Below, piece after piece: positions 2,395 through 17,364 of a DNA stretch of 21,237 nucleotides (positions are counted from its first letter, which is position 1; the number at the start of each line of letters is the position of its first letter). The stretch comes from a virus: IMG/VR virus record IMGVR_UViG_3300029955_000168, positions 1 through 21,237 of that record; one strand, written 5' to 3'. The translations under genes and the position numbers were made by a program. The notes under the pieces were generated by a model. That model did no database searches. It saw only the letters and a list, made by a program, of their open reading frames with translations, and had not been told where the DNA came from.

Positions 2395-2414
2395 TTGCTA
2401 GATTTATCTAGCAA
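2395..2414. repeat. perfect inverted repeat TTGCTAGA-TTTA-TCTAGCAA
   Basis: An 8-bp perfect stem with a 4-nt loop lies in the gap between the zinc-ribbon gene (stop at 2460) and the transglycosylase promoter. It is AT-rich, and on the - strand, the direction of both genes, no T-run follows the stem, so it is a poor terminator. A TTTT follows on the + strand only. It may be an operator for the downstream lytic promoter or a transcript-end hairpin. Confidence 0.4.
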
Positions 2415-2459
2415 TTTTGCAACATACTGTAATTATTGATGAAATCCTCGGTATATTGA

Positions 2460-2849
2460 TTATTTTTCGGGCTTTTCCTGCTGTTTCATCAATCCCTTGA
2501 CATTTTGACTATATTTCTGCGACTTGGTGCGATATTTGCAGTTATTACATTGCCTAAAGTACCAACTATCGCCAAGTTTGGAGTAAACCGTAATTTCTAG
2601 AAAGCCTTCGTTACACTCCCTACACTTCCACTCAGATTTGAGCATGTCCAGCATCTCCATTGTAGTAGTTTCACTATCCTCACGGGCGTAGTGTTCCTCA
2701 ACAATATCGCGCACATAGGCATGTCTGTCCAAATCGAGCTTGGCCAGTGCCTTACGTAACCCTGCGTTTTCCCTCTTTAATTTTCGGTTTTCATGTAGAG
2801 CTGTCTGTAATCGATCATATTCTTTGCCGCCACGGATGTTTTTGCCCAC
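2460..2849 (-). CDS. coiled-coil + zinc-ribbon protein, unknown role
   Basis: A 129-aa protein starting at GTG 2849, with AAGGAG (2861-2856) 6 nt upstream. Residues about 10-40 are a charged heptad-like helix rich in Lys, Arg, Glu and Leu, probably a coiled coil. They are followed by an acidic helix (47-72) and a four-cysteine zinc ribbon, C76-x2-C79 and C101-x2-C104, with aromatic strands between. The tail is basic. Small zinc-ribbon proteins of this kind in phages often bind nucleic acid or RNA polymerase, but I recognise no named family. It is transcribed away from the large fibre gene and shares a 96-bp divergent control region with it. Confidence 0.75.
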   Translation of the reverse strand: MGKNIRGGKEYDRLQTALHENRKLKRENAGLRKALAKLDLDRHAYVRDIVEEHYAREDSETTTMEMLDMLKSEWKCRECNEGFLEITVYSKLGDSWYFRQCNNCKYRTKSQKYSQNVKGLMKQQEKPEK

Positions 2850-2869
2850 GGGTAGCTCCTTGATAATTG

Positions 2870-2898
2870 ATTGTACGTGATATAAAGGTTATGTGCAA
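2870..2898 (-). promoter_or_regulatory. sigma70-like promoter for the zinc-ribbon gene
   Basis: On the - strand, TTGCAC (2898-2893) and TACAAT (2875-2870) are separated by 17 nt. The boxes match the consensus at 4/6 and 5/6. The start would be near 2863, directly in front of AAGGAG (2861-2856) and GTG 2849. The spacer contains the complement of the + strand GTGATATA element, so the two opposed promoters share DNA. Confidence 0.5.
2875..2888 (+). promoter_or_regulatory. GTGATATA element, copy 1 (candidate phage promoter)
   Basis: ACGTGATATAAAGG lies 58 nt upstream of the 1150-aa fibre gene, in the only gap before it. The same core appears at 6862-6869 and 9126-9133, always in a gap ahead of a fibre gene. 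If transcription starts just after TATA, the leader here is about 61 nt and holds AGGAG 6 nt before ATG 2946. Confidence 0.55.
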
Positions 2899-2945
2899 CC
2901 CCACAATCTTATATTGGTAGCACTTAAAGGGTCTAGGAGTCAAAA

Positions 2946-5900
2946 ATGGCTGTTCAACGTCGCGTCAACTGGATATCGCAACAACGGGTAGATGTACCCG
3001 ATGTTCGTTCTATAGAATCAGCCGCTTCCAACGATTTTGACCAACTAATCCAGGCTTTTGTCACTGGAACGTCACAGGGCTATGTCCTGCGTGGTTTCGA
3101 GATCGCAATGACCGGCGCTATCGGTGGCGCAGCTTCAGGCCTGAATTTGATCGTAGACCCAGGTGCCTTGATGCACATTTCGGCCAGCCAGTCTGGTACG
3201 ATTTTTATGGTTCCCACTGGAACCGCCAATCAACAACTCAATAGTGCTACAAATACGACCGTCACAGGTGCCTTTACTCCCAACGCTATCAACTACGTTG
3301 GTATTGACTACTCTCGCTACATTGACCCTACGACTGACGCCCAGGTATACATTTGGGACCCGACCACAAATAGCGAAACTTCGCTGGTTGCTCCCCGCGC
3401 TCAGATCCTTGAATACGACATCATCATTTCGACTACTGTTTGGCCCTCGAACGTACTTCCTATCGCTATCGTCACGACTGACCCTGGTAACAATGTTCTC
3501 TCGATCACAGACTCTCGTTGGCTTCTGTTCCGCTTAGGAACTGGTGGAACTAACCCAAATCCTTTCTACGTTTATCCTTGGACTGCACAGCCTGAGGGAC
3601 GTACTGAGAATCCTCCTACATCAACTTCTGACGCAGTGAATCCTTTTGAGGGCGGCGATAAGATGCTGATGAACCTCAAAGACTGGATGAATGCTGTCAT
3701 GTCGTCTTTGCTGGAAATCAAAGGAACTACCTACTGGTATTCCATGGGTGCCGGTGGATCTATCTCGAACCTTCGTGAAGATCTGGGCAACACGGTTGTC
3801 ACAGGCGCAGGTTCAATTGCACACGGCGTATTGCCAAATACTATTCCAGTTCTCACTACAACTGGTAATACTTCTGCAAACAGCAATCAACTGACCGCTT
3901 TAGCTTCCACAACGGGCATCGTTGTTGGTCAAGTGGTTATGGGCAACGGCATTCCAGAACAAACTACTGTTCTTAGCATCGCTGGTAGCACTGTCACATT
4001 ATCTAAAGATGCAACGCAGAGTTTGTCAACTACTGCTGTTTCGTTCTACAGTCCAAACACTGTAACCGCTCCTGGTCAAGTCAACTGGGACCAAGGTATC
4101 TTCTTAGACGTAATCGGAACACGGTTAGCCTATGAATTCTTGCCCAATCCTTCGTCTGCAAATATTTTACTCGCTGACGATCAAGTAGCATACGTCAATC
4201 TCGTTCGCGGTGTTGCAATCACTCCAAACCTTATCTTTACAAGCGGCAGCGCAATCGTTCAATCGGTTGGCTCTGTATCTTGGACTTCAGGACTGGAATC
4301 AGGCGATTACGTTCGCTTAGGATCTGACACTGACGCTGGCTACTACGAGATCTCAACTGTAGATTCTTCTCTACCGCAAGTTACTCTGACAATTCCTTAC
4401 GGCGGAGTATCCACTGGAGCATCGGGCGCTAAAGCTGTCTATGCTTTCGGTTCTTACGCTAACAGTCCTACCGCACAAGCTTCTGATCGCTACATTCACA
4501 TTGCAGACCGCGATGAAGTCCCACAAACTGGGAATGTATGGTGGTTTTTACTTCGTGAAGATAACGGCGGGTCTGTTCCAACGGTTTACGTTCGTTTCAT
4601 CGGACAAGAATTGGAACAAGGTGACACCAACGTTATCGGCGACGGTTTCCCTAAAGAAGTCCTGCAATACATCGGATCGCCTTCCGAGTACACAAGCTTA
4701 CCTAACTACACTGCTGCTCTGACTCCTGGCGCTGTTCCTGAAGTATCACAAATCACGACTGGCGCTGAATCGACAATGAGTTCTGGCCAGTATTTCTACA
4801 TTAGCTCAGCTGGCAATGCTAGACAATACTACGTATGGTTCACTCTCAACGGCGTGGGAACAGACCCAATGCCTGTTGCAAACCGTATCGGAGTAAAGGT
4901 AAATCTTACTACTGGCCAAACGAATGCGCAGGTTGCTAGTGCAATCGCCGCTGCTTTGTCTGGATTGGTCGCTGGAGATTTCAATACTAGCGTTACGTCA
5001 AACGTAATTACTGTAACCAACTCGTCTGCTGGCACATGCTCTCCTCCTTCCAACGTAAGCGTCAGCGCTCCATTTGCTATCGTCGTTACACAAATCGGTA
5101 CAGGCGTAGGCAATAACGTCATCCATGACGGCGACAATTTGACTTTAGCCATCAAAGAATTGGACGAAGCTATTGGCGCAATCATTGCTAATGCGGATAA
5201 TCCTAATTACGATGAGCCGCTGAGCGTAATCACTGGCGCTCCAGCAAATAGTAATCAGGTAACTGGTCCTATTAGCTCTGGAGCAAATCTTACTCTGCCA
5301 AACAATTCTCGTGAAAGCGAAATGGCCCAATACTACACGGTCGGTCTTGGATCGCTGATGGTATTCTTGAATGGTCAATACCTTGACTTGAATGAGAGTT
5401 CCTCTTCTAGCGTAATCGTAACCCATAACATGTCTGCCGGTAGCTATACTGGCGTAGTAGGACTTATATCTCCAGCTGGTCAAGAGTATGCGATTCAATA
5501 TACTCCTACCGCTAATGCTGACTTGTCCTCGATACGATTCGCACTTTCGCAATCTCATGCTTCTGGCGTGTCTGGAAACTTGTTTGCAAATGTTAGAGCA
5601 GACGCTTCTGGAACTCCTAGCACGGTTCTTGGAACTTCGGCTAACGTATCTGCCACTGGAATTCCAAATGCCGTTGTTACTCCTATAGCCTTTACGTTTA
5701 GCTCCCCAGTTACGCTTGTAGCTGGAACCACATATTGGTTTACTTTGTCTGCTGATTCTACGTACTTTGCTAGTGCGTCTGCCGGTAACGAAGTAGTAAT
5801 GCAAGCTCAAACTGGAAGTGGAACTCCATACCAGTGGGACATTTATAACGGAACTACGTGGACTTCTGTACCTAGCACTACGCCGTCTTTTGAATTAGAT

Positions 5901-6398
5901 GGCACGACTACTTCTGGCGGATTCGATTGGACTGAAGTCGGTTCAGCTGGAACTCTATCTAATCTCATACAAATCAACCGAAACTTAGTTGTCGGTGACG
6001 TAGTTACTTTCAGAATCAACGTTGGTTCTGGCGGTGGATCTGGTGGAGGCGGCGGAGTCGGACCACAAGGGCCTCCTGGACCTGCGGGACCTGCTGGAGC
6101 AAACGCAGCTGGTGGACCAGTAGCAGTTAGCACTAAAACTTCTAGCTACACAGTTCTGTCTACGGATTGCGTACTGAAAGCGGATTGTACTTCTGGTGCA
6201 GTTGTTTTCACTTTGCCAACCGTAGCTAGCTCAACTGGACGAATCTTTTACTTGAAGAAAATTGACGCTACTTCAAATCTTATGACTGTCAAAGGCAATG
6301 GCGCAGAACTCATTGATGGAAGTAACGTTCAAACTACTTCCGTGCAGTGGACTTCCTTTACGGTTGTTTGTGACGGATCTACTTGGAGCATCTTGTAA
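2946..6398 (+). CDS. large multidomain tail fibre protein with collagen-like neck
   Basis: An 1150-aa protein; AGGAG lies 6 nt before the ATG. Visible parts in order: an N-terminal region (about 1-220) likely to attach to the tail; a G-I-P-x-x-T-x-V fibre repeat domain (about 300-370, MGNGIPEQTTVLSI); a mixed alpha/beta domain with YYVWFTLNG and VASAIAAAL (about 611-708); and an LxVFLNG...FDW beta module split by an insert (about 780-1020). The insert (about 817-990) resembles choice-of-anchor R beta-sandwiches (VTLVAGTTYWFTLSA). After it come a Gly-rich linker, a short collagen-like run GPQGPPGPAGPAGAN (1039-1053), and a C-terminal beta domain (about 1060-1150, TVLSTDCVLKADCTSGA, ending in STWSIL) that is widespread at phage fibre tips. 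It probably trimerises and contacts the host surface. Confidence 0.85.
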   Translation: MAVQRRVNWISQQRVDVPDVRSIESAASNDFDQLIQAFVTGTSQGYVLRGFEIAMTGAIGGAASGLNLIVDPGALMHISASQSGTIFMVPTGTANQQLNSATNTTVTGAFTPNAINYVGIDYSRYIDPTTDAQVYIWDPTTNSETSLVAPRAQILEYDIIISTTVWPSNVLPIAIVTTDPGNNVLSITDSRWLLFRLGTGGTNPNPFYVYPWTAQPEGRTENPPTSTSDAVNPFEGGDKMLMNLKDWMNAVMSSLLEIKGTTYWYSMGAGGSISNLREDLGNTVVTGAGSIAHGVLPNTIPVLTTTGNTSANSNQLTALASTTGIVVGQVVMGNGIPEQTTVLSIAGSTVTLSKDATQSLSTTAVSFYSPNTVTAPGQVNWDQGIFLDVIGTRLAYEFLPNPSSANILLADDQVAYVNLVRGVAITPNLIFTSGSAIVQSVGSVSWTSGLESGDYVRLGSDTDAGYYEISTVDSSLPQVTLTIPYGGVSTGASGAKAVYAFGSYANSPTAQASDRYIHIADRDEVPQTGNVWWFLLREDNGGSVPTVYVRFIGQELEQGDTNVIGDGFPKEVLQYIGSPSEYTSLPNYTAALTPGAVPEVSQITTGAESTMSSGQYFYISSAGNARQYYVWFTLNGVGTDPMPVANRIGVKVNLTTGQTNAQVASAIAAALSGLVAGDFNTSVTSNVITVTNSSAGTCSPPSNVSVSAPFAIVVTQIGTGVGNNVIHDGDNLTLAIKELDEAIGAIIANADNPNYDEPLSVITGAPANSNQVTGPISSGANLTLPNNSRESEMAQYYTVGLGSLMVFLNGQYLDLNESSSSSVIVTHNMSAGSYTGVVGLISPAGQEYAIQYTPTANADLSSIRFALSQSHASGVSGNLFANVRADASGTPSTVLGTSANVSATGIPNAVVTPIAFTFSSPVTLVAGTTYWFTLSADSTYFASASAGNEVVMQAQTGSGTPYQWDIYNGTTWTSVPSTTPSFELDGTTTSGGFDWTEVGSAGTLSNLIQINRNLVVGDVVTFRINVGSGGGSGGGGGVGPQGPPGPAGPAGANAAGGPVAVSTKTSSYTVLSTDCVLKADCTSGAVVFTLPTVASSTGRIFYLKKIDATSNLMTVKGNGAELIDGSNVQTTSVQWTSFTVVCDGSTWSIL

Positions 6399-6844
6399 TG
6401 TCGTATACTCCAAACACTGTGGGTTCACAGTTTTATGGATCGGCACGGTCGCTAGCTAGCGGCTATGCCAATGGAACAGGAGCCACTCTAACTCAGAGTA
6501 CGCCCGTTTCCGTCAATACGTCTGGTCAGATGATTCCTGTAGATATTACAAGTGACGCATCTGTAGCTGGACTTATCGGACTTGTCCAGCAGGACACTCC
6601 AACAACTGCGGTTGGTCTGGTTACTGATTCAGGACGGCTTGAAAATATTACAACGTCCTTTAGTGTAGGCGATGCTGTCTATATTAATTTTGACGGAACC
6701 CTTACAAACGTCAGACCCGATATAACGGTATCTGGATGGGTTTCCGGAATGTACATGGTCTTTATTGGTGTTATCGTTTCAAATCAATTTAATCCGTCCT
6801 TGAAAGACATCAAGATCTATCTGGACGTTATAGGTCAGTTGTAG
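6398..6844 (+). CDS. small beta-rich structural protein (fibre-associated)
   Basis: A 148-aa protein. The true start is ATG 6398, sharing one base with the fibre stop (TAATG), with GGAG 9 nt upstream; an in-frame ATG at 6383 lies inside the fibre gene. A low-complexity Ser/Gly/Thr start is followed by a compact beta domain: TPVSVNTSGQMIPVDIT (about 35-51), VAGLIGLVQQ, and FSVGDAVYINFDGTLTNVRPD (88-108). This VIG...GDAVYI...G(T/K)L order resembles the C-terminal domain of the 632-aa fibre encoded next, and DUF2190-like decoration proteins. I infer a virion surface or fibre-junction role; the family assignment is tentative. It is the last gene of the first fibre unit. Confidence 0.7.
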   Translation: MSYTPNTVGSQFYGSARSLASGYANGTGATLTQSTPVSVNTSGQMIPVDITSDASVAGLIGLVQQDTPTTAVGLVTDSGRLENITTSFSVGDAVYINFDGTLTNVRPDITVSGWVSGMYMVFIGVIVSNQFNPSLKDIKIYLDVIGQL

Positions 6845-6860
6845 GAACTGGCAATCTTTT

Positions 6861-6871
6861 AGTGATATAGG
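6861..6871 (+). promoter_or_regulatory. GTGATATA element, copy 2 (candidate phage promoter)
   Basis: AGTGATATAGGGAG precedes ATG 6880 in a 35-nt gap. TATAGGGAGT is close to the T7-class start region TATAGGGAGA. A start at the first G after TATA leaves a 10-nt leader that still contains the GGGAG ribosome site; a start 7-10 nt further on, as a sigma-type -10 box would give, would remove it. This spacing favours a single-subunit-polymerase style start, but no polymerase gene is in view. Confidence 0.55.
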
Positions 6872-6879
6872 GAGTAAAT

Positions 6880-8778
6880 ATGGCATTACAAAGTAAGTTT
6901 TTACAATTAAGCACAGGCGCAGATCGTACATACGATGCTTCAGCCTCAGGAAATGGTCTTATCGCCGCAGCAATGCAGTTGAATGGATCTACTTCTGGAA
7001 CCATCCAATTCTTTGCATCGGCAACAACTGCTTCGTATGCGGTTACATGGCCTGCTGCTCAAGCGGCTGGTGTGTTGACCAACAACGGATCTGGCGTTCT
7101 TAGCTGGGCAGCTGGCGGTAGCGTCACTGCGGTATCAGTAGCCTCTGCGAACGGTTTCGCAGGTAGCTCGTCAGGCGGTACAACTCCGATCTTGACGCTG
7201 AGCACCACTGTTACGGGCATCCTCTTTGGTAACGGAACTTCGGTTGCCGCTGCCGTCGCAGGTAACTTCCCTACTCTGAATCAAAACACGACTGGAACTG
7301 CGGCAAGTGTCACTGGCACAAACGTAGTTACGAATACAAACTTAGCTCAGATGGCCGCAAACACCATCAAAGGCAACAACACTGGTGCGACAGCAAATGC
7401 CGCTGATCTGACAATTGCTCAGGTCAACACCATGTTGGGAGATATCCTTGCGAATGGTTCCGTAGCTTTTGCTGCCAACCAATCAATGGGCGGTTTCCTC
7501 TTAAACAACTTGGCGAACGGTGTAGCTTCTGGCGATGCTGTTAACTTAGGCCAATTGCAATCGAGTATCAATGGTCTTTCTTGGAAAACCGTTGTTCGTT
7601 CTGCTACTACTGCCGCTTTGCCTGCAAACACTTATGCTAACGGTTCGTCTGGTGTCGGTGCTACTTTAACTGGTAACTCTAACGCAGCACTTCCTGCTCA
7701 AGATGGCGTAACACTTGTTGTCAACGACCGCATCTTAGTTAAAAACGAAGTTGCGCAAGCAAACAACGGTATCTATACCGTCACTCAAGTTGGTAGCGGT
7801 TCGCTGCCATACATCTTGACTCGTGCTACCGACTCTAACACTTCTGCATTGCTCGTTTTCGAAGCTGTGCAAGTTGGTAACGAAGCTTCGACGCAAGCTG
7901 GATTCGCATACCGCGAAGCAACGGCTAATCCCATCACAATCGGTACGACCGCAATCGTATATATTCAGTGGGCAACTGGTATCTCGTACACTTTCGGCAA
8001 TGGTTTGCTGACTTCTGGTTCGACGATCAGCGTTCTCGCTAATCCGACCAATCCTTCGATCCTCGTTGGCGCTGCTGGCGTGTCTGTTCTGCTCAATGCA
8101 GCTGGCGCATTGTCTAGTACTTCGACTGGATTGCAAGTCAACCTCAATCCGACCAATCCTGGTTTGGCTATCACGTCAAACAACCTCGATGTCAAGTATG
8201 GCGCTGCAATCGTTGCAAGTGCTTCTGGTATCGCATGGAATCCGGATGGTTCGTCTCTTGAAGTTAGCTCGAATGCTGCACGTATCAAAACTACAGCATA
8301 CGATCAAGTCACTATCACTGGTGGCGGCGGAACCGCAGCTAGCGTTGCTCAAGCACCCGCTGTTCGTGGTACTTATGTTGCTGGCCAATCGTTCAGTGCC
8401 AACACTACGTACATGGTTCGTTGGGGTATCACGGCAAACGGCGAGACTTCTGGTCGCGTCTACGCAGCAGATATTACAACTTCGTCTTTCGATCTTTTCT
8501 ACGTCATCGGAACAATTTCGCCTACTGGCGCAATCGTTGCTGGTAACAACGTAACAGTTACACGTTTAGGCCCTCAAGCTTTAGGATCGGCTGATACCGC
8601 ATTCGGAAGTGGAACTGACGGCAAAGCTGTTTTCTTAACTGCTGCTGGAACTTTCTCTTTGACCGCTCCTTCGGCTTCAGGTCAGGCAGTTACGAGAGTT
8701 GGTATCGTACAGGTCGGAAGCGCAACGAATACTCTTTGTATTCTTGACGTTGCTCCTGTGGCGGTTGGTGTTAACTAA
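6880..8778 (+). CDS. tail fibre / tailspike-like protein
   Basis: A 632-aa protein starting at ATG 6880 behind GGGAG. The first 230 residues are Gly/Ser/Thr/Asn/Ala-rich with fibre-type repeats (GGTTPILTLSTTVTGILFGNGT about 100-121; then GNFPTLNQNTTGTAASVTGT). Residues about 235-335 form a well-known fibre module: WKTVVRSATTAALP, then D-G-V-T-L-V-V-N-D-R-I-L-V-K, then NNGIYTV (about 295-301) and a RATDSNT tail. Residues about 370-460 contain two NPTNP repeats. The C-terminal 160 residues (473-632) form a beta domain with VRWGI, VYAADIT, VIGTISPTG and VGIVQVGS, related in strand order to the 148-aa protein upstream. No catalytic motif is evident, so adhesion rather than depolymerase activity is the simpler reading. 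It is coupled to the next gene by TAATG. Confidence 0.8.
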   Translation: MALQSKFLQLSTGADRTYDASASGNGLIAAAMQLNGSTSGTIQFFASATTASYAVTWPAAQAAGVLTNNGSGVLSWAAGGSVTAVSVASANGFAGSSSGGTTPILTLSTTVTGILFGNGTSVAAAVAGNFPTLNQNTTGTAASVTGTNVVTNTNLAQMAANTIKGNNTGATANAADLTIAQVNTMLGDILANGSVAFAANQSMGGFLLNNLANGVASGDAVNLGQLQSSINGLSWKTVVRSATTAALPANTYANGSSGVGATLTGNSNAALPAQDGVTLVVNDRILVKNEVAQANNGIYTVTQVGSGSLPYILTRATDSNTSALLVFEAVQVGNEASTQAGFAYREATANPITIGTTAIVYIQWATGISYTFGNGLLTSGSTISVLANPTNPSILVGAAGVSVLLNAAGALSSTSTGLQVNLNPTNPGLAITSNNLDVKYGAAIVASASGIAWNPDGSSLEVSSNAARIKTTAYDQVTITGGGGTAASVAQAPAVRGTYVAGQSFSANTTYMVRWGITANGETSGRVYAADITTSSFDLFYVIGTISPTGAIVAGNNVTVTRLGPQALGSADTAFGSGTDGKAVFLTAAGTFSLTAPSASGQAVTRVGIVQVGSATNTLCILDVAPVAVGVN

Positions 8779-9116
8779 TGGCTAGTACCTCGGCTCTAGT
8801 TTTAACGAATGGTTTCCCAAGGATGACCGCTATCGGCGGTGCTCCTATATACGATCAGAGCATTTCTGTCGTATCGTCTGGGACTCCTCCAGGTTCCGTT
8901 ACAGGACCCGTTACGATTGGAACTGCGCTAACCCTGCCTGCCTCTGGTACATACCAGATCAGTAGTGGCGTGGTTAGCATGAACATATATCTAAACGGTG
9001 ATCGTTTGGAGTATGGAATTGATTGGAATACTTCGGGCTCAGGACCAAATTTTACAGCATTCGTGCTGACTTTGGGCTTAGTTGTGGGCGACAGGTTAGA
9101 TTTACGGGTCGAGTAG
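8778..9116 (+). CDS. single-module beta protein of the LNG...DW fibre family
   Basis: A 112-aa protein translated through a TAATG junction with the 632-aa fibre. After a Ser/Gly-rich lead it has one compact module: ITIGTALTLPASGTYQI, then SMNIYLNGDRLEYGIDW (about 70-86), then LTLGLVVGDRLDLRVE at the C-terminus. The LNG-x-x-L...DW...L-V-x-GD pattern is the same as the split module near residues 780-1020 of the 1150-aa fibre (FLNGQYLDLN ... FDW ... NLVVGDVVTFRI). It therefore shows the intact form of that domain. The role is probably a fibre tip or connector; no enzymatic residue is visible. Confidence 0.72.
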   Translation: MASTSALVLTNGFPRMTAIGGAPIYDQSISVVSSGTPPGSVTGPVTIGTALTLPASGTYQISSGVVSMNIYLNGDRLEYGIDWNTSGSGPNFTAFVLTLGLVVGDRLDLRVE

Positions 9117-9121
9117 ATTCG

Positions 9122-9135
9122 TTACGTGATATAGG
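9122..9135 (+). promoter_or_regulatory. GTGATATA element, copy 3 (candidate phage promoter)
   Basis: TTACGTGATATAGG fills the gap after the 112-aa gene and before ATG 9152. A start at the G after TATA gives an 18-nt leader carrying AGAGG 6 nt before the ATG. The ACGTGATATA core is identical to copy 1. It would drive the seven genes from 9152 to 16340. Confidence 0.55.
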
Positions 9136-9151
9136 ATAACAGAGGTTAAAG

Positions 9152-11578
9152 ATGCCAACTCAAATAGATATTAGACAGTCAGTATTACGCTCCGCATTAA
9201 CGATGGCCGGTTCAGGCGTCAATGCTGGCGTAGACACTATTCTGATTGCCAATGATCCTTTGATTCAGCAGTTGTATCAAGATCGCAACATCACGCTTGT
9301 CGATGGTGGAACGATTACGTTTACTGGAACACAAATCCAGTTCACGCAGAATCTTGACATGGTAATAAACCAAGCTTTGGGTGCTACCGCTGCGGCTGTG
9401 ACGATCAGTCTTGGGTCTGCCAACGTAACGCTCAATAACGGTGACATGTGGTATGCGATTCTGAATCGCTCTGCAAACACTGCTACTACTGCAATTGCTA
9501 CCGCCGCCGTTGGTCTCCCTGGCGTATCGAACGCTAACCAAAATATCATCCTTTTAGCTAAACGCTTTGACTCTGCTGACGGCACCCAAATGGTGTACTT
9601 CCGCACTGGCATGTCTTTGACTGCTGGTCAATCCGCTCGCCTAGGCGCAAGCGGTGGAAATGGATCTGGCTCTGGAACTGGTGATGATCTAGATTCGCTG
9701 AATTTCAGCGTAAGCTTTACTGATACTTTCTCAGATTTGTCTACTTCGTCTTTGACTTCTGTTGATAACTCGGCTGGTCATACCAACGCTGTATATAGTC
9801 CTTCGAATAAATATTACACTCTGTCATATGATGCTTCAAAAACCGTAACTGGTACTGGCACTTCGATGACTTTGAGCGCCACTCCTGCTTACACAGTCGC
9901 AGTCGGAGATATGCTTCGCGTTGGAACTCAAGCACGCAGAATCACAGTTGTAACTAGCCAAACAGCATATACGATTGAAGCAGCATTCACTACGAATCCT
10001 ACGGGAGCAGCAGCTTGCGTTTCGCAGGCGGTTTATACCAAAGACTTAAACAACTTCGCGGTTGACGGCGTTGCTCCTAGTGCAATTTTCACTGGAAGCA
10101 TCAACAGCTTTCTATTAATCTACAATGATACTACAACTGGTACGATTTACAATTATTTAGATCCTGCTTTGATTGCTTACACGGCATCGGCTGACGGAAC
10201 TAGCTATACGAGCGTTGGTGTTCGTGAATCCAATCCTTCGATTGAAGCGTTTGCAAACTCTACGCCTACCGCTGGATCAAACCTATATTTCCGTTTCTTC
10301 TCCGATGCTTTGACTGGAAGCGGCACATACAATCTAGTTGGCTACAAAACCTTTTTCCAAAGTCAAAATGCCGTGGAAAGCGGTGGCGTACTAAATCAAG
10401 CTTACGCCTTCACCAATAACGTTGGTACTCCCTACAACTGTACGGTAACTGGTGGAAATGGAACTGCTACATCCATTGGACTTACCTGGAACTATCCAGT
10501 TGGATTGAACGTTGGCGGACCAGATGGTTCGCTACAAGTTTATCTGAACGGTCAAAAGATTCCACGTTTTATCAGTTCAACATTGACTCCTGACGCTTCT
10601 TATTTGGAAGTTAGCGGAACCGCAATTCAGTTAGACCGCGACTACTCAAGCCAAAATTTGAACATTGAAGTTGTTCAACAAGTCTATGTTGTTGATAGTA
10701 GCACTCAAAATACTACGAATATTTCTGCTCTTACCTCGTTCATCAACAATGCTTATGAAGTAGATAGAATTTTTTCAACTGGTACATCTGCTACCTTCCG
10801 TCCAGATTATATGTTCTTCACAGCATCGTGCAATGCCACTACTGGTGCGACATACACGAATAACGGTGTAACTTTTACTGTTTATCAAACCGTTGCTGGA
10901 TCTGCAATTGTTATTGCAAATGGAAACTCAGCGCCCACCACAAGTGGCGTTCTCACAAAAACTTCTGGAACTGGCGATACCACAATTACTTTCTCTTCTT
11001 GGAAGCTTCCTACCGCTATTCGAGTAAAAGTGCAAGGTCCTGGCGGAAACGGTGGCACTACTACCGGCACGACATCTGTCCAGAACTCTGTCGGCGGCGG
11101 CGGTGGCGGCGGCGGATATGCAGAAAAACTTATATATGGATCTCTTTTAGCGTCTTCTTATACGTATACCGTGGGCACGCCTGGAACAAGTTCAACTTTC
11201 GCTGGCGGCTCAATATCTTTGACGGGCGGCTCAGGAAGTACAGGCGCTGGCGGAGCAGCAGAAGGCGTCGGACCAATTTATGGAAGCGGTGGCGCTACAG
11301 GTGGAACGGCTTCTGGAGGCGACATAAATTGTGTAGGACAGTTCGGATGGCCAGGTATTGTGCTCGCTCTAGGACAATATTTAGCAGGATTAGGTGGAAG
11401 CTCAGTATTTGGATTCGCCATTAACTGCAATCAAGTCGGTAGCGGCGTGGGCGTAGCAGGACAGTCTCCTGGAGTCGGCGGCAGCGGAGCAAGTGCTGGT
11501 ATTAACCAAAGCTCTTTCGCAGGTGGCGCAGGCGCAAACGGCGTCATCGTCATACAACAGCACTATGTGGGTGGATAA
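9152..11578 (+). CDS. tail fibre with glycine-rich adhesin tip
   Basis: An 808-aa protein; AGAGG lies 6 nt upstream of the ATG. The first 165 residues are a beta domain (VDGGTITFTG, LAKRFDSADGTQMVYFRTG) followed by a Gly/Ser linker (about 168-177). The middle has repeated beta modules, among them an LQVYLNG stretch (about 463-469) of the LNG module family, and ATTGATYTNNGVTFTVYQ (about 564-581) ahead of GVLTKTSGTGDTTITFSS. From about 624 the sequence becomes extremely Gly-rich, with eight consecutive Gly near 647-654 and many GG/GS turns, and ends GANGVIVIQQHYVGG. Gly-rich tips of this type, as in T4 gp38-like adhesins, form polyglycine-II layers that display variable receptor-binding loops. 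I infer that it is a main host-range determinant. Confidence 0.82.
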   Translation: MPTQIDIRQSVLRSALTMAGSGVNAGVDTILIANDPLIQQLYQDRNITLVDGGTITFTGTQIQFTQNLDMVINQALGATAAAVTISLGSANVTLNNGDMWYAILNRSANTATTAIATAAVGLPGVSNANQNIILLAKRFDSADGTQMVYFRTGMSLTAGQSARLGASGGNGSGSGTGDDLDSLNFSVSFTDTFSDLSTSSLTSVDNSAGHTNAVYSPSNKYYTLSYDASKTVTGTGTSMTLSATPAYTVAVGDMLRVGTQARRITVVTSQTAYTIEAAFTTNPTGAAACVSQAVYTKDLNNFAVDGVAPSAIFTGSINSFLLIYNDTTTGTIYNYLDPALIAYTASADGTSYTSVGVRESNPSIEAFANSTPTAGSNLYFRFFSDALTGSGTYNLVGYKTFFQSQNAVESGGVLNQAYAFTNNVGTPYNCTVTGGNGTATSIGLTWNYPVGLNVGGPDGSLQVYLNGQKIPRFISSTLTPDASYLEVSGTAIQLDRDYSSQNLNIEVVQQVYVVDSSTQNTTNISALTSFINNAYEVDRIFSTGTSATFRPDYMFFTASCNATTGATYTNNGVTFTVYQTVAGSAIVIANGNSAPTTSGVLTKTSGTGDTTITFSSWKLPTAIRVKVQGPGGNGGTTTGTTSVQNSVGGGGGGGGYAEKLIYGSLLASSYTYTVGTPGTSSTFAGGSISLTGGSGSTGAGGAAEGVGPIYGSGGATGGTASGGDINCVGQFGWPGIVLALGQYLAGLGGSSVFGFAINCNQVGSGVGVAGQSPGVGGSGASAGINQSSFAGGAGANGVIVIQQHYVGG

Positions 11579-11581
11579 TTT

Positions 11582-12706
11582 ATGAGTAAAATTCAAGGCG
11601 TACACATTCCAGCAGACAATAAGAATCTAGCAATCAATGGAAACTTTGATTTCTGGCAACGATTTGAGGGAAACACTACCACTGTCAATACGGCCACTTC
11701 GTTAAACTCTTCTAATAATTATTTTGCAGATCAGTTTTCGTTTGCCACAGCTGGTGGAACAGTTAAAAACTTTTCGGTTGTTAGATCTACAAGTGTACCA
11801 ACGATAGCGCAATCTGGAATGGAGAGCACGTATAGCGCTTTGTTCACGATGATTACTGGAATCGCATCACCCGTAGCTGCTGACTACGTAATTCCATATT
11901 TATACAAGATGGAAGGCTTAGACTTTCAGAGAATTTACCAAAAGACGGTTGCGATTGGCTTTTGGTGTTTAGCTAGCGTTCCTGGAACCTACAATGTTGC
12001 AATAACTAACGGAGCTTTTACTAGAAGTTACAATACTTCTTTCGTTATCGCAAGCGCTAGCACCTGGCAGTTTGTAACGGTAACAGTGCCAGGAGACACT
12101 GGTGGAACGTGGAATTTCGATAATACACAGGCATTTGTAGTTTGCATAGGCGCATACGCCGGTACGACAGGCACTACGTCTACGCCAAATACATGGCAGA
12201 CTGGGGTATTCTACGCCGCAACAGGCGGAACTAATTGGCAAGCAACTAGTGGAGCTACTCTTCAGATCGCGCAATTTTCTATCATGGAAGGCGCACTTGG
12301 CGCTGGCCCTAAAGGGTTTCAACGCCAGGGTAAAGGTCTTCAACAAGAATTAGCTCTTTGTCAAAGATACTACTTCAAAACGTTTTTGGCGGGTACTGCT
12401 CCTGCCCAAAATGCTGGCAATAATAATATTTTTACATTCCCACAGACTGTGGCAGCCTCAACAGGATTATCAACAAGCCCTTCTCTTTGTTTGCCTGTTA
12501 CCATGAGAGTACAGCCAACATGTACCTCTTACAATCCTTTGGCGGCAAACGCACAGATACGAAATACAAGCACCAGTACTGATTTCTCTACAACTGGATT
12601 TGTAGAATCAAACACCAACTATATTTCTGTCACTGGAACTTCTCCTGCTGGTTCATCGGCGGGGAATTCATGCGTGATACACATAACAGCTGAAGCGGGA
12701 ATGTAA
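11582..12706 (+). CDS. fibre protein, NG-x-F-x-x-WQR family, copy A
   Basis: A 374-aa protein starting 4 nt after the Gly-rich fibre; a GGA-type ribosome site lies in the end of that gene. It opens with NLAINGNFDFWQRFEG (residues 15-30), then a jelly-roll-like region: SVPTIAQSG, YKMEGLDFQRIYQKTV, SFVIASASTWQFVTV, TGGTWNFDNT and TNWQATSGATLQIAQFSI. It then has the hallmark QQELALCQRYYFK (about 257-269) and a separate C-terminal beta domain. In many phages the same pattern, an NG-x-F-x-x-WQR start with an ELALCQRYYEK end, marks tail fibre proteins with a galactose-binding-like fold, likely binding sugars on the host. A close relative lies at 14252-15337, and each of the two is followed by a related small gene. 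Confidence 0.8.
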   Translation: MSKIQGVHIPADNKNLAINGNFDFWQRFEGNTTTVNTATSLNSSNNYFADQFSFATAGGTVKNFSVVRSTSVPTIAQSGMESTYSALFTMITGIASPVAADYVIPYLYKMEGLDFQRIYQKTVAIGFWCLASVPGTYNVAITNGAFTRSYNTSFVIASASTWQFVTVTVPGDTGGTWNFDNTQAFVVCIGAYAGTTGTTSTPNTWQTGVFYAATGGTNWQATSGATLQIAQFSIMEGALGAGPKGFQRQGKGLQQELALCQRYYFKTFLAGTAPAQNAGNNNIFTFPQTVAASTGLSTSPSLCLPVTMRVQPTCTSYNPLAANAQIRNTSTSTDFSTTGFVESNTNYISVTGTSPAGSSAGNSCVIHITAEAGM

Positions 12707-12707
12707 A

Positions 12708-12881
12708 ATGAATTATCAACAAGTTAATGACCAAAATTCAGTACTTAGAACCAATATGATTACCAGACTTAACGACGATGGAACGGTATCTTGGATTCCC
12801 AACGATCCCGCCAACAGTGATTGGGTAGCCTATCAAGCATGGCTTGCAGCTGGAAATACTCCAGAAGCACCTACGGAATAA
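12708..12881 (+). CDS. 57-aa fibre companion protein, copy A
   Basis: It begins MNYQQVNDQN one base after the preceding stop and ends AWLAAGNTPEAPTE. The core is SWIPNDPANSDWVAYQAWL (28-46). The pattern I-P-x-D-P-x-N-x-D-(W/Y)-x-x-Y-x-x-WL-x-x-GN-x-P is common in small phage proteins next to tail fibres and in parts of fibre-assembly proteins, so an assembly or capping role is likely. It is 57 aa long. A clear homologue (58 aa) lies at 15340-15516, also directly after a WQR-family fibre gene; both carry YQQVND and WIPNDPAN. Confidence 0.78.
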   Translation: MNYQQVNDQNSVLRTNMITRLNDDGTVSWIPNDPANSDWVAYQAWLAAGNTPEAPTE

Positions 12882-12884
12882 TAT

Positions 12885-14243
12885 ATGCCAATTACTAAAG
12901 CGATTAGCTCAAAAACGAATACAAAACAGCTTACGAATGCTGACTCGCCCAACAATCCTAATCAGGTTGTAACGGCTGTCTATGGTCCCGTAGCGTCTAC
13001 TGCTGGTCAAACCGTAATCAATTTATCGTTTGCGGTAAATACTTCAGCGACTTCCAATTTCTTCTTATATGTTGATGGCAAACTGTTGTCTTTAGGCGCT
13101 GGTAACGATTACACATTTACTAGTATTCAGGCCAATGGAACTAGCTCACAGGTTACTCTAAATCAATCGTTACCTGCCAACTTAAATATCCAAGCTTTCT
13201 ACTTGGGCGTTGTTGTTCCTACTTTCTCACTGTCTACTCTGACTGCTTCTGTCAACACTTTGACCGCTAGCACTCCTGCAAATCAACTCATCAATGGTGG
13301 ATTCGAAGTTTGGCAACGTGGCACTTCAACCACGATAGCTAACGGAGCTACTACTGGCCAGTATCAAGCTGATCGCTGGTATGCTAAGAACTCGTTGGGC
13401 ACTTCAGGCATATTGACTTATTCTCAGACTGCTGGAGCCAATACTGGATCTAAATTCGGAGCAAGTCTTCAAATCACTACTGCTCCTACGGCTTCGCAGG
13501 CTAATGGCTGTGAGCTATACCAGACACTAGAGAATCTGAACACTATTCCTTTGCTCAATCAAACGCTGTCTTTCTCTTGTTTAATCAAGGGCCTTAACAA
13601 CGTTACTTCTATTGGATTACAGTTTTACTACGCAACTACTGAGATTAAAGTTACCACCCCACTTGGATCAGAGCAATCTGTAACCGTTACAAACTCTGGT
13701 TTTGTTAGTGGAAAACTACAAGGCATCGCAATTGGAACCCTACCCACTAATGCCGGATCTATCGGCGTTCGCATCAGAATTTTGGGCGTTTCCTCAGGAA
13801 ACACTTACGATATCAGCAATGGTTTCGTAGTCGAACAGGCCATGATGAACATTGGTGCCACTGCTGCAAATTTTGCACGTGCAGGACGCAACTATGCCGA
13901 CGAATTTGCTATGTGTCTGCGTTACTGCGAAGTTTTTGGACTAAGCGCTGCAAGTGGCCGTCCAATGGCAATGGGTACGGTAATTTCATCTGGTAGCAAT
14001 CAATTTATTATTGCGTTTGCCGGTAAGAAACGCGTAAACGCAGTAGCTACGTGTAATTCGGCTAGCTCATTTGTGATTTCCAACGGAACTAATACAGGTT
14101 CTGCCACGGGATTTTCCGACAATGGATGCGGAGTAGATGCAGGATTCGTAATTTTCACGGCTACTTCTACTTCTGTTAATGCTTCTACTTTATTGACGCA
14201 ATCTGTAAGCACAGGCCGCATCTTCTTCGATTCGGAAATATAG
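12885..14243 (+). CDS. fibre protein, WQR family, divergent copy B with extra N-terminal module
   Basis: A 452-aa protein with two parts. Residues about 25-110 form an LNG-type module (AVYGPVASTAGQTVINLSF, FFLYVDGKLLSLGAGNDYTF, LPANLNIQAFYLG) comparable with the 112-aa protein, followed by a short TLTASVNTLTAS repeat. From about 138 it has NQLINGGFEVWQRGTS, then QADRWYAKNS, a jelly-roll-like domain, FARAGRNYADEFAMCLRYCEVF (the counterpart of the ELALCQRYY motif) and a C-terminal beta domain ending FFDSEI. It is clearly related to its neighbours on both sides but much more divergent, and has no small companion gene behind it. The stop codon lies in a decayed-looking copy of the promoter element. 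A sugar-binding fibre role is inferred. Confidence 0.78.
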   Translation: MPITKAISSKTNTKQLTNADSPNNPNQVVTAVYGPVASTAGQTVINLSFAVNTSATSNFFLYVDGKLLSLGAGNDYTFTSIQANGTSSQVTLNQSLPANLNIQAFYLGVVVPTFSLSTLTASVNTLTASTPANQLINGGFEVWQRGTSTTIANGATTGQYQADRWYAKNSLGTSGILTYSQTAGANTGSKFGASLQITTAPTASQANGCELYQTLENLNTIPLLNQTLSFSCLIKGLNNVTSIGLQFYYATTEIKVTTPLGSEQSVTVTNSGFVSGKLQGIAIGTLPTNAGSIGVRIRILGVSSGNTYDISNGFVVEQAMMNIGATAANFARAGRNYADEFAMCLRYCEVFGLSAASGRPMAMGTVISSGSNQFIIAFAGKKRVNAVATCNSASSFVISNGTNTGSATGFSDNGCGVDAGFVIFTATSTSVNASTLLTQSVSTGRIFFDSEI

Positions 14244-14248
14244 GATAA
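14229..14248 (+). promoter_or_regulatory. possible degenerate copy of promoter element 3
   Basis: GATTCG-gaa-ATATAGGATAA here matches GATTCG-ttacgtg-ATATAGGATAA at 9116-9139: six and eleven identical bases with a 4-nt shorter middle. The GTG of the core is missing. AGGATAA also works as the ribosome site of ATG 14252, so part of the match is explained by that function, and the rest is coding for the end of the preceding gene. Confidence 0.25.
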
Positions 14249-14251
14249 AAC

Positions 14252-15337
14252 ATGGCACTTACAAATTTAAACGCAGTTCCCTTAAAAAATCTAGCCATCA
14301 ACGGTGCCTTCGACTATTGGCAACGATTTGAAGGCGGAACGCAGACTTTGACATCGGCTGGCGAATACGTTGCAGACATGTATGTTTCCACCGTATCTGG
14401 TTCATCGACAAAAAGTATTTCGTTTCAAAGATCTACTTCTGTCCCTACCATAGCTCAATCTGGATTCAATAGCACGTACAGCTTCTTGTGTACTAGCAAT
14501 ACCGCAGTTCCATCTCTTGCTGCAAATGAAAACGTATGCGTCGCAGAATACCGAATGGAAGGCCTGGACTATGAAAAGATCCACGCAAAAACCATCACGC
14601 TTAACTTTTGGATGAATGCGTCTGTTGCAGGCGTATATTCGATCTATTTCTTGAATAACGCAGGCACACGTTCTTACATCACTACTGTTACTCAGACTTC
14701 TGCTAGCGTATGGCAGCTTCAATCCGTAACTTTGACTCTAGACAGCGCGGCCAATTCAGCCAGCTGGAACTTCGACAATACTGTTGGTCTTAAAATAGGC
14801 TTGTGTGCAATATCTGGAAGCACTACCCAAACAGCAAATCTTAACCAATGGCAAGCAGGCGGATTCTTGTCGGCTACGACTGGAACCAATTGGTTAGCTA
14901 CGGCTGGCGCTACGGTACAGCTTGCGCAGTTTTCTATCGCTGAAGGTCCTATCGGAACTACGGTTTCTGGATTTTTACGAGCAGGTAATACGATCCAACA
15001 AGAACTGGCTCTTTGCCAACGCTACTATGAAAAGAGCTACGACATTGGGACTGCTCCTGGAACCGCAAGTTCTGTTGGAGTATCCAATTTTACGGCGGTT
15101 GTTACTGGTCAGAATATAAATACGCTATTTTTTAGATCAACCAAGCGCACAGAGGGCACTGTAACATTTTATGCTTACGCCGCAGCGAACACGACGGCCA
15201 ATTGGACATTGAACGGTACGACCAATACTGCTGCTACTCTCCAGGTTTCTGGCACTAACTCTATTTCGGTGAGCGTTACTGGATCTTCTGGAAATCCAAA
15301 TTTAGCAGGACATTGGACCGTAGAGTCGGGACTGTAA
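14252..15337 (+). CDS. fibre protein, NG-x-F-x-x-WQR family, copy C
   Basis: A 361-aa protein; AGGA lies 6 nt before the ATG. It follows copy A (11582-12706) from end to end: NLAINGAFDYWQRFEG (about 13-28), RSTSVPTIAQSG, YRMEGLDYEKIHAKTI, SWNFDNTVGLKIG, TNWLATAGATVQLAQFSIA, QQELALCQRYYEKSYDIGTA, then a C-terminal domain ending TVESGL. Protein similarity is obvious, but third codon positions differ widely, which points to an old duplication with retained protein function. The C-terminal third differs most from copy A, as expected if that end recognises different receptors. It is followed after 2 nt by its own small companion gene. Confidence 0.8.
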   Translation: MALTNLNAVPLKNLAINGAFDYWQRFEGGTQTLTSAGEYVADMYVSTVSGSSTKSISFQRSTSVPTIAQSGFNSTYSFLCTSNTAVPSLAANENVCVAEYRMEGLDYEKIHAKTITLNFWMNASVAGVYSIYFLNNAGTRSYITTVTQTSASVWQLQSVTLTLDSAANSASWNFDNTVGLKIGLCAISGSTTQTANLNQWQAGGFLSATTGTNWLATAGATVQLAQFSIAEGPIGTTVSGFLRAGNTIQQELALCQRYYEKSYDIGTAPGTASSVGVSNFTAVVTGQNINTLFFRSTKRTEGTVTFYAYAAANTTANWTLNGTTNTAATLQVSGTNSISVSVTGSSGNPNLAGHWTVESGL

Positions 15338-15339
15338 TC

Positions 15340-15516
15340 ATGACTTATCAGCAAGTAAACGACAATCAAGGCAATCTGCGCACTGATGTTATCGTGCGTA
15401 CCAACGACAGCGGATCTATCTCGTGGATTCCTAATGACCCCGCTAATAACGACTGGATCATCTATCAGGCCTGGCTTAATGACGGCACCGGCAACGAGCC
15501 CTTGGCTCCCGCTTAA
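15340..15516 (+). CDS. 58-aa fibre companion protein, copy C
   Basis: The true start is ATG 15340 (MTYQQVNDNQGNLRT), not the upstream in-frame ATG at 15313, which lies inside the fibre gene. It shares YQQVND near the N-terminus, SWIPNDPANNDW (29-40) and YQAWL with the 57-aa protein at 12708-12881, and ends GNEPLAPA. No strong Shine-Dalgarno site is visible, so translation is probably coupled to the fibre. The conserved pairing with WQR-family fibres in both copies argues for a dedicated partner, such as a fibre-folding chaperone or terminal cap. Confidence 0.78.
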   Translation: MTYQQVNDNQGNLRTDVIVRTNDSGSISWIPNDPANNDWIIYQAWLNDGTGNEPLAPA

Positions 15517-15518
15517 AC

Positions 15519-16340
15519 ATGAAATATTTTCCAATGGTTCAACCGGCAATCGACGCCCAAGGTGTGATTACGGAAGGACCGACAGACAATTTTGACGGTG
15601 GAGACACCGCACAGCGCGAAGGTATGTTCGCTTTCGCAGCTTATTTGTTACACTCTTTAGGAAAGATGGACGATGCAGAATTCGGATTTTGTTCTGATCG
15701 GTATGCTAAAATTATTTCTCTTCTTAATGACCCGAATCATTCTGGGCTCATTAGGCGCTATCCTGCTTTGCCATTTTGGGGTGCTTACTCTGACAGATTG
15801 TCCAGAGATCAAGCTACCTCTAATCTTCCTGCTCTTGGGCTTCTCAACAGAACTGCTCTTAAAAGCTTTTGCTGGGCTCATCTTAAGTATCGAGGATTAC
15901 TTTTTCTAACCAATACTAGAAATAATGGCGCTTTGCCAGGCACTCCAGCATATGCTTGGAAGCTTCCAGACATCACAGTATTGGACTTTCACGGTATGTA
16001 TGTTCGTGCGCTTAGAGCGTGGCCTTTATACCCATTCTTGTGGCTTAGTGATCTAGCTATGCCAGTAAATGCTCTGATTAAGGTGTTTTCTTATGGAAAG
16101 GTTTCAACTAATAATGATGACTTGAGCTTTTTGATGGAGCTATATCAAGCAGAAATGTCGATGCCGACTCTTTGGTCCAAGCTGGCTAAGTGGATCTACA
16201 AGTTCAGACCACTTCCTTCAAATTGTGGCGATACTAAGAATCCAGCACAAGCGTGTATGAACGCCTACTTCAATGGCTCTAACCCAGGACCTAGACTTGA
16301 TCTAGTCTATCTTGAGATTAACTCGCACTTTTTTGGTTAA
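15519..16340 (+). CDS. unrecognised 273-aa protein at the end of the fibre unit
   Basis: It begins MKYFPMVQPAID two nt after the companion gene, without an evident ribosome site. Unlike the Thr/Ser-rich fibres before it, it has many aromatic and hydrophobic helical stretches: FDGGDTAQREGMFAFAAYLL (25-44), YSDRLSRDQ (90-98), WAHLKYRGLLFL, a hydrophobic stretch LRAWPLYPFLWLSDLAMPV (about 164-182), and CGDTKNPAQACMNAYF. The GGDTAQREGM and DR-x-SRDQ segments look like conserved sites. Comparable proteins with GGDT...SRDQ occur near phage fibre genes and could be alpha/alpha-barrel, glycosidase-like enzymes, but this is recollection, not proof. Position suggests a tail- or capsule-related function. 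Confidence 0.7.
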   Translation: MKYFPMVQPAIDAQGVITEGPTDNFDGGDTAQREGMFAFAAYLLHSLGKMDDAEFGFCSDRYAKIISLLNDPNHSGLIRRYPALPFWGAYSDRLSRDQATSNLPALGLLNRTALKSFCWAHLKYRGLLFLTNTRNNGALPGTPAYAWKLPDITVLDFHGMYVRALRAWPLYPFLWLSDLAMPVNALIKVFSYGKVSTNNDDLSFLMELYQAEMSMPTLWSKLAKWIYKFRPLPSNCGDTKNPAQACMNAYFNGSNPGPRLDLVYLEINSHFFG

Positions 16341-16371: not shown

Positions 16372-17364
16372 TTATTTTTTTGATTTTTTCCATATCTTGT
16401 CATTTTTTACCATTTCTTCTACGGATTTTCTAATCAAGTCATTGTCTTGACCTAAATTAAAGCGTCCAAAACTATCATCTGCTCCCATATCAGATCCTTT
16501 GGTCCAGGATATTCCCGATTTACTTAGTAATTCTTCGCATTTTTCGTCTATTTTGCCCCAGTAAAACATGCCATCGTGACAAACAGGGCGTCCTTCGAAG
16601 AACTTTTCGAGCTTGCTCCATTCCTCGCGGTTGTTATCCAGATTACTCTTGGCAATTGTTTCAAACAAATCCCAATCAAAATCGAACAGAACATTCTTTA
16701 GGATCTCGACTGAGGCCACGGATATGCCGCAGTACTCGCCCACTATCAGTTCCTTGATACGCTCAGCAAGCAGGTCATCATCGGTGGCAATCCAGCCCAC
16801 GCGCAGGCCATTAAGCCCTAGAAGCTTTGAGTAGCTACCACAGAGAACATCGTGGGCAATGACAGGTACAAAGTATCCAGCCAGGTAAACCCGATTGAAA
16901 TAGACTGCATCTAGTATAGTGGGAGCTATGCTAAACCTTATGCCACTCGTAAACCCCTGTGGATTCGATGGAATATCTAGCAAAACCACGCCTTCTTCAG
17001 GGTCAATTCCTTTGCTTTCTTCAAGCTGAATCAATCCAGAAGCCTTAATCATAGAGGGATAACGCAGATACCAAGGAGCATTCCTAGTGTAGCAAATACT
17101 CTTTCCACGTTGTTTCATAGCACGTAGGGCTATTGTGGCTGCACCAGTTGCTCCGTTTGTAATGTAGACGTGTTTTTTGGTGATGCCCATTTGTCGCAAA
17201 ATGACATCTCGTGTAATTTGTATCAGTTCTGGATCGCCGTATCTGTCAGGGTAATCAAATTTGCTTAGACCATCTTGGGTAAAGACTATCATCTCTCCAT
17301 GATAAGAATCTAGGAAGGCCTGTCGTATGCAGACGCTATTGCCAAAGCCTAAGTCGTATTTCAT
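16372..17364 (-). CDS. fold-type I PLP-dependent aminotransferase (class I/II)
   Basis: A 330-aa protein with the full set of class I/II aminotransferase landmarks: cofactor-phosphate loop TNGATGAA (69-76), Asn134 in IPSNPQGF, Asp152 and Tyr155 in LDAVYF (pyridine nitrogen and O3' contacts), SYSKLLGLNGLRVGW with the Schiff-base Lys180 and Arg188, and Arg301 in SFGRFNLG, the usual substrate-carboxylate arginine. Length is closest to HisC- or CobD-like short members (about 330-360 aa). It should therefore be catalytically competent, moving an amino group or decarboxylating an amino-acid substrate; the substrate cannot be read from sequence. It is the last gene of the - strand operon, overlapping the 276-aa gene by 4 nt (ATGA). 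Such enzymes are rare in phages. Possible roles are amino-sugar, cofactor or modified-nucleotide synthesis. Confidence 0.9.
   Translation of the reverse strand: MKYDLGFGNSVCIRQAFLDSYHGEMIVFTQDGLSKFDYPDRYGDPELIQITRDVILRQMGITKKHVYITNGATGAATIALRAMKQRGKSICYTRNAPWYLRYPSMIKASGLIQLEESKGIDPEEGVVLLDIPSNPQGFTSGIRFSIAPTILDAVYFNRVYLAGYFVPVIAHDVLCGSYSKLLGLNGLRVGWIATDDDLLAERIKELIVGEYCGISVASVEILKNVLFDFDWDLFETIAKSNLDNNREEWSKLEKFFEGRPVCHDGMFYWGKIDEKCEELLSKSGISWTKGSDMGADDSFGRFNLGQDNDLIRKSVEEMVKNDKIWKKSKK

Follow-up and report, generated by a model that had tools for sequence, protein, structure and literature searches.

Genes of a large group of phages related to Myxococcus phage Mx1 are preceded by two short, strict sequence words, TGATATA and (C)AATCTT[AT]A. 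The model that best accounts for them is a two-class cascade in which TGATATA would be read by a sigma70-type (host) polymerase and AATCTT by a phage-encoded sigma factor, a reading to which we assign a probability of about 0.8 on the basis of sequence. We computed motif enrichment, strictness, and orientation, the initiator, the distribution of leader lengths, the split between gene classes, and the fold and truncation of the sigma factor; from these we infer the reading polymerase, the timing of each class, and the pairing of the phage sigma with AATCTT.

The window, that is, the whole stretch of DNA analyzed, is the entire IMG/VR record IMGVR_UViG_3300029955_000168 (21,237 nt), itself a fragment. 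A preliminary description had pointed to an 8-mer, GTGATATA, in every long gap of its fiber region, and these counts were reproduced: the word occurs exactly three times, always on the plus strand (Table 1), within the gaps at 2850 to 2945 (96 nt), 6845 to 6879 (35 nt), and 9117 to 9151 (35 nt). All other gaps before or between the plus-strand fiber genes are 30 nt or shorter when the small open reading frame (ORF) at 12707 to 12880 is counted. No other 8-mer is shared by the three gaps, and when each gap was dinucleotide-shuffled separately, any shared 8-mer arose in just 2 of 20,000 sets. The division of the region into transcription units, proposed at the same time, can be kept as far as the units are bounded by promoters; a scan of 2400 to 9300 for terminators and sigma70 patterns returned no more than chance. 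Immediately downstream of each of two paralogous fiber genes is a small ORF (12707 to 12880 and 15313 to 15516); the two ORFs are themselves paralogous, share the ending ...WIPNDPAN..DW..YQAWL..., and perhaps encode small fiber-associated proteins.

Table 1. Candidate promoter elements and genes of the fiber region of the window
Feature	Position	Strand	Remarks
TGATATA core, copy 1	2878–2884 (GTGATATA 2877–2884)	+	predicted +1 G2893; 53-nt leader to ATG 2946
CAATCTT core, late type, same gap as copy 1	2904–2910	+	predicted +1 G2917; 29-nt leader with AGGAG
Long fiber-type protein	2946–6398	+	directly follows copy 1; 77% identity to G001 over the N-terminal 150 aa
Small protein after first fiber gene, copy 1 unit	6401–6844	+	
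CAATCTT core, late type, overlapping copy 2	6852–6858	+	predicted +1 A6865; 15-nt leader keeping GGGAG
TGATATA core, copy 2	6863–6869 (GTGATATA 6862–6869)	+	predicted +1 A6878; 2-nt leader to ATG 6880, near-leaderless
Tail fiber-like protein behind copy 2	6880–8778	+	phrog_8745
Small protein, copy 2 unit	8778–9116	+	
TGATATA core, copy 3	9127–9133 (GTGATATA 9126–9133)	+	predicted +1 G9142; 10-nt leader GAGGTTAAAG, GAGG from +1
Tail fiber protein behind copy 3	9152–11578	+	phrog_863; first gene of 9152–16340 run

Because the window is a fragment, the significance of GTGATATA was decided in its relatives. A long relative, IMGVR_UViG_3300050821_010761 (G001; 168,807 bp), encodes proteins 67 to 77% identical to those of the window, and its capsid protein has 51% identity to the one encoded by Mx1 (169,621 bp), the only close annotated relative found in the collection searched. 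Using the G001 capsid protein as the query, 63 loci were found; shorter records also carry genes related to those of the window, and the first 8 kb of the window, searched as nucleotides against phage records, gave no match. The Mx1-related family is large and almost unstudied: the Mx1 genome paper is an announcement, and we found no paper on Mx1 transcription. The data sets were a clade set of 13 near records plus the window (14 records, 1.71 Mb), an outgroup of Mx1 and four more distant whole records, and a hold-out set of 24 near, previously unused loci. A 4.9-kb record, IMGVR_UViG_3300031788_000418 (L003), is near-identical to the left part of the window (99% for the DnaQ-like protein) and includes the copy 1 promoter gap. 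The minus-strand ORF at 16372 to 17364 looks by eye like a PLP-dependent aminotransferase, with no strong family match, and has an apparent relative in G001 at 32538 to 33518.

In the clade set, TGATATA occurred 126 times in gene-upstream gaps against 5.8 expected from its own rate outside gaps (~20-fold), the counts being not fully independent since the clade genomes share ancestry. The same word ranked top in an unsupervised count of 7-mers, and all 21 of its single-base variants were near background in these gaps. Orientation was equally marked, with 72 sense and 6 antisense copies in co-directional gaps (25 and 1 for GTGATATA) and only 0 and 2 in convergent gaps. What relatives conserve is the seven-base core: the leading G is present at 36% of sites, against 39% with A, and the following base is A in 52, T in 48, G in 22, and C in 11, so that of the "core plus purine run" described earlier only the core TGATATA carries over. 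The longer pattern GTGATATARR matched at most once per relative genome because its flanking letters are not conserved. The sites of the window are themselves retained. Copy 1 has a syntenic counterpart at G001 21639 with conserved GATTGTACGTGATATA...CAATCTTAT, and 11 of 13 relatives retain, in the orthologous gap, the AATCTT that lies beside copy 1; the order CAATCTT then TGATATA in the copy 2 gap recurs in G001 at 25145 to 25158; and the TGATATA of copy 3, whose gap holds no AATCTT, is kept in the orthologous gaps of three relatives (G003, G008, and G018). Dinucleotide shuffling of the entire window gave three copies of GTGATATA in 2 of 100 trials, which might be taken to leave room for coincidence; however, the excess in relatives and the retention in orthologous gaps make the likelihood of three chance copies negligible, and the family-wide counts refute it.

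The downstream bases indicate where transcription would begin. With identical sites only removed (as also in the leader, −35, and hold-out analyses), the base 15 nt from the first T was A in 57, G in 41, T in 18, and C in none of the gap copies (n = 116; 84% purine), compared to C in 36 of 171 copies inside genes (P = 2 × 10−9), and the base before it (−1) was T in 68 of 130 sites. This T-then-purine (YR) step falls where the +1 of an extended −10 promoter is expected and therefore fixes the geometry, which we read from the sequence as T−15 G−14 n−13 T−12 A−11 T−10 A−9, with a predicted start 9 nt past the last A. A Shine-Dalgarno sequence, where found, began at or after this +1 in 32 of 34 sites and before it in 2. 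Leader lengths, measured to starts from a simple gene caller that favors Shine-Dalgarno sequences and is thus biased against leaderless calls, were bimodal: one group of 28 sites lay between −1 and 3 nt, with 14 at exactly 0, and the other began at 9 nt; leaders of 4 to 8 nt were avoided (1 of 55 within the range −1 to 13; P = 9 × 10−9). The hold-out loci agreed for both the TGATATA and AATCTT cores. Enrichment upstream of genes, strand specificity, strict conservation, and a fixed initiator together bear out the earlier proposal of a promoter specific to this phage group.

The same data bear on two other readings of the motif. It had been proposed that the three copies are late promoters, perhaps for a T7-like single-subunit polymerase, with initiation right after TATA (TATAGGGAG), and TATAGG is indeed present in copies 2 and 3. 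However, there is no initiator signal at base 7 and a strong one at base 15, most copies lack a purine run, leader lengths are bimodal around the base 15 start, the motif also drives nonstructural genes, and the relatives encode a sigma-70-type factor instead, leaving this reading very improbable. A search for RNA_pol (PF00940) in five relatives gave no match, as was likewise the case for the control genomes. The supporting argument, that the ribosome sites of copies 2 and 3 survive only if transcription starts right after TATA, is not needed given the starts predicted at the window copies; the GGGAG of copy 2 is retained solely by transcripts that begin from the overlapping CAATCTT. Alternatively, TGATATA might be no promoter at all but a site in the 5′ region bound by RNA or protein (an operator or translational element), as the palindrome TGATATATCA in some divergent gaps could suggest. 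Most copies are nonpalindromic and strongly sense oriented, one fixed downstream base is a purine and never C, and a Shine-Dalgarno sequence rarely precedes that base, so we consider such a site improbable and retain the promoter reading. The palindrome forms the core in several gaps (G001 at 7804, 21639, and 25152; G007 at 37726), and one such site could provide promoters on both strands.

Bacterial extended −10 sigma70 promoters (TGnTATAAT) carry TG at −15/−14 and TATA at −12 to −9, with an optional −35 box at about 17 nt. Counted from the independent +1 signal, TGATATA has TG and TATA in these positions. TTGAC was present at the sigma70 −35 spacing (15 to 20 nt, six positions) in 10 of 133 sites, compared to 2 in 36 other positions, which favors sigma70-type reading; such a box is thus occasional. 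Unlike its bacterial counterpart, the element in the clade of the window needs A at −13 and leaves −7 random, and in other lineages −13 is fixed as G or T; T at −7 was found only in G024 and G027. On these grounds, TGATATA appears to work like an extended −10 sigma70-type promoter but not to be a standard member of that class. The form of TGnTATA changes by lineage, from TGATATA in the clade of the window to TGGTATA in G025 and G026, TGTTATA in G027, and TGATATNNT in G024, where T at −7 is present in 13 of 13 elements, the sigma70 form. Across G025, G026, G027, and G024 (L181–L188, L198–L206, and L215–L230), the −13 base varies (A, G, T) and AATCTTTA is constant.

Since a free −7 and a strict A at −13 are not required by plain host sigma70, a phage component may take part in reading TGATATA. 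Extending this, the seven bases might be a code used by the phage only, read by a factor other than the conserved sigma, for instance a modified holoenzyme or a small activator made early. In favor of this, each of the seven bases is needed with no variant tolerated, −7 carries no information though sigma70 needs T there, lineages differ at −13 (A, G, or T), and canonical TTGAC-TATAAT-like promoters form a separate third class (TTGAC[AT], 16 to 18 nt, TAnnnT; 54 upstream of genes in the clade compared to 5.4 expected). Against this stand the sites with TTGAC at sigma70 spacing, the sigma70 form of the element in G024, and the finding of just one sigma-like gene per genome; we regard such a factor as possible, if unlikely. 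Similarly unlikely is the fuller version, in which a phage-specific factor imposes the seven-base code and has changed its −13 base between lineages as the AATCTT/sigma pair stayed fixed. If this were true, the temporal switch would involve leaderless starts, among them those of the sigma gene in several lineages. We favor reading of TGATATA by a sigma70-type polymerase. Many of the 54 third-class sites are in G010, mostly before small unknown genes, and they are probably an early class.

The second core, (C)AATCTT[AT]A, was as strict and as sense oriented in the clade as TGATATA. The base 12 nt from its first A was C in 0 of 91 sites, and AATCTT would accordingly occupy −12 to −7, with (C)AATCTT[AT]A spanning −12 to −5. 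No −35 signal was found at these sites, which thus show the features of a single-element promoter: a strict −10-like element, no −35 element, and a fixed start. The core is family-wide, occurring as AATCTTTA in distant lineages and also in Mx1, where the GenBank annotation places the start codon at CAATCTT+13 at 36563, 75289, and 121405. Both classes are predicted often to give leaderless mRNAs (0 to 3 nt) or short leaders with a Shine-Dalgarno sequence at the 5′ end.

The candidate reader of AATCTT was located through the annotation of Mx1, which lists a "putative RNA polymerase sigma factor" (WNM70309.1; P0001). Of the 33 relative records searched, 25 carried an orthologue, among them all near or distant ones longer than 72 kb, and the gene is absent from the 21,237-nt window fragment; the G001 and Mx1 proteins are 39% identical. 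PF04542 was detected in the Mx1 protein at an E value of 9 × 10−4, under the curated cutoff, and a Sigma70_r2 Pfam search over the relatives gave no match to the divergent sigma, with the control matching. A 24-sequence profile searched against the PDB retrieved sigma-70 factors (best E value, 3.8 × 10−6), one of which aligned from region 2 up to the beginning of region 4. An AlphaFold model built from a 56-sequence alignment (pLDDT 86) matches primary sigmas; the overall TM of about 0.4 probably reflects a different placement of the domains. A model from 13 close sequences had a pLDDT of 46 and was set aside, and the corresponding profile gave no match in the PDB. The last residue of the model aligns to residue 566 of Escherichia coli sigma70, in whole records the homologues stop close to where region 4.1 begins, and the −35-binding part of region 4 (4.2) comprises sigma70 residues about 573 to 600; region 4.2 is therefore missing. 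Region 2 was thus recognized by both sequence and fold, and the region 4.2 helix-turn-helix for the −35 box was lacking. As modeled, the protein would be a sigma-70-fold factor with regions 2 and 3 that ends before region 4.2, and such a factor suits a core without a −35 box.

The two cores precede different genes. With gene class assigned by orthology to annotated Mx1 proteins, TGATATA was found in 19 of 39 gaps before nonstructural genes and AATCTT in none; gaps before structural and other late-type genes carried AATCTT in 52 of 144 cases, 22 of these with TGATATA too (P = 4 × 10−7 for the split). TGATATA lay upstream of sigma in 7 of 9 genomes and upstream of groEL in 8 of 9, and it also precedes helicase, fiber, and baseplate genes. 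The label "late" given earlier to this motif is therefore apt for the fiber and baseplate genes but not for sigma, helicase, and groEL, and by sequence the truly late-looking core is (C)AATCTT[AT] rather than TGATATA. Distant lineages had the same class split, each with its own TGnTATA form in which the −13 base is switched. The timing of both classes is deduced from gene content. For the sigma genes of G008, G017, G033, G010, and G025 (L103, L105, L113, L115, and L119), the predicted leaders are −1, 0, 0, 3, and 0 nt, respectively; in several lineages the sigma mRNA is thus predicted to be leaderless or near-leaderless.

According to the two-class model, TGATATA (TGGTATA or TGTTATA elsewhere) would function without an obligatory −35 box, with the start at the purine after T, and would be read by a sigma70-type holoenzyme, most likely that of the host, perhaps with a phage helper. 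Genes under this class would be those for the phage sigma, helicase, and groEL, together with several structural operons. With the phage sigma bound, the core polymerase of the host would then read (C)AATCTT[AT]A and drive structural genes. The two cores lie in tandem in the first fiber gap and overlap in the second, with TGATATA alone in the third, a layout that would let the fiber units be transcribed in two phases. For these environmental phages, a large group on which we found no transcription study, the analysis provides a predicted transcription map at base resolution, and it would match a sigma that has no region 4.2 to a promoter that has no −35 box. It also indicates unusually frequent leaderless or minimal-leader phage mRNAs; since the group has a cultured member, leaderless initiation could then be tested in a lytic system.

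Several known systems resemble parts of this arrangement. T4 late promoters (TATAAATA) have a strict AT-rich element near −10 and are read by gp55, a sigma without region 4. Their sequence differs from AATCTT; common to both are the one strict AT-rich element near −10 and a phage sigma lacking region 4. The T4-like word TATAAATA, tried as a promoter here, was not concentrated in gaps. Likeness to T7 and SP6 promoters is confined to the TATAGGGAG letters of copy 2; there is no 23-bp consensus here, and the start site lies elsewhere. In phiEco32, the middle and late promoters are read by the phage sigma phi32_gp36, itself a middle gene product without a recognizable region 4; they consist of a single −10-like element (consensus tAATGTAtA) with no −35 box, and transcription starts 6 to 8 bp downstream (PMC8948821). 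The AATCTT class is similar in its single −10-like element, its lack of a −35 box, its start a few bases downstream, and a phage sigma without region 4.2; it differs in its core (AATCTT compared to tAATGTAtA), in belonging to unrelated phages, in coexisting with a second, extended −10 class, and in frequent leaderless starts. The early and late promoters of AR9, with motifs AAATATATATTAT and AACA-(6N)-TA/G, are read by phage multisubunit polymerases (PMC5312081). As in AR9, the phages described here have short genome-wide motifs at a fixed distance from +1, and some genes carry both classes.
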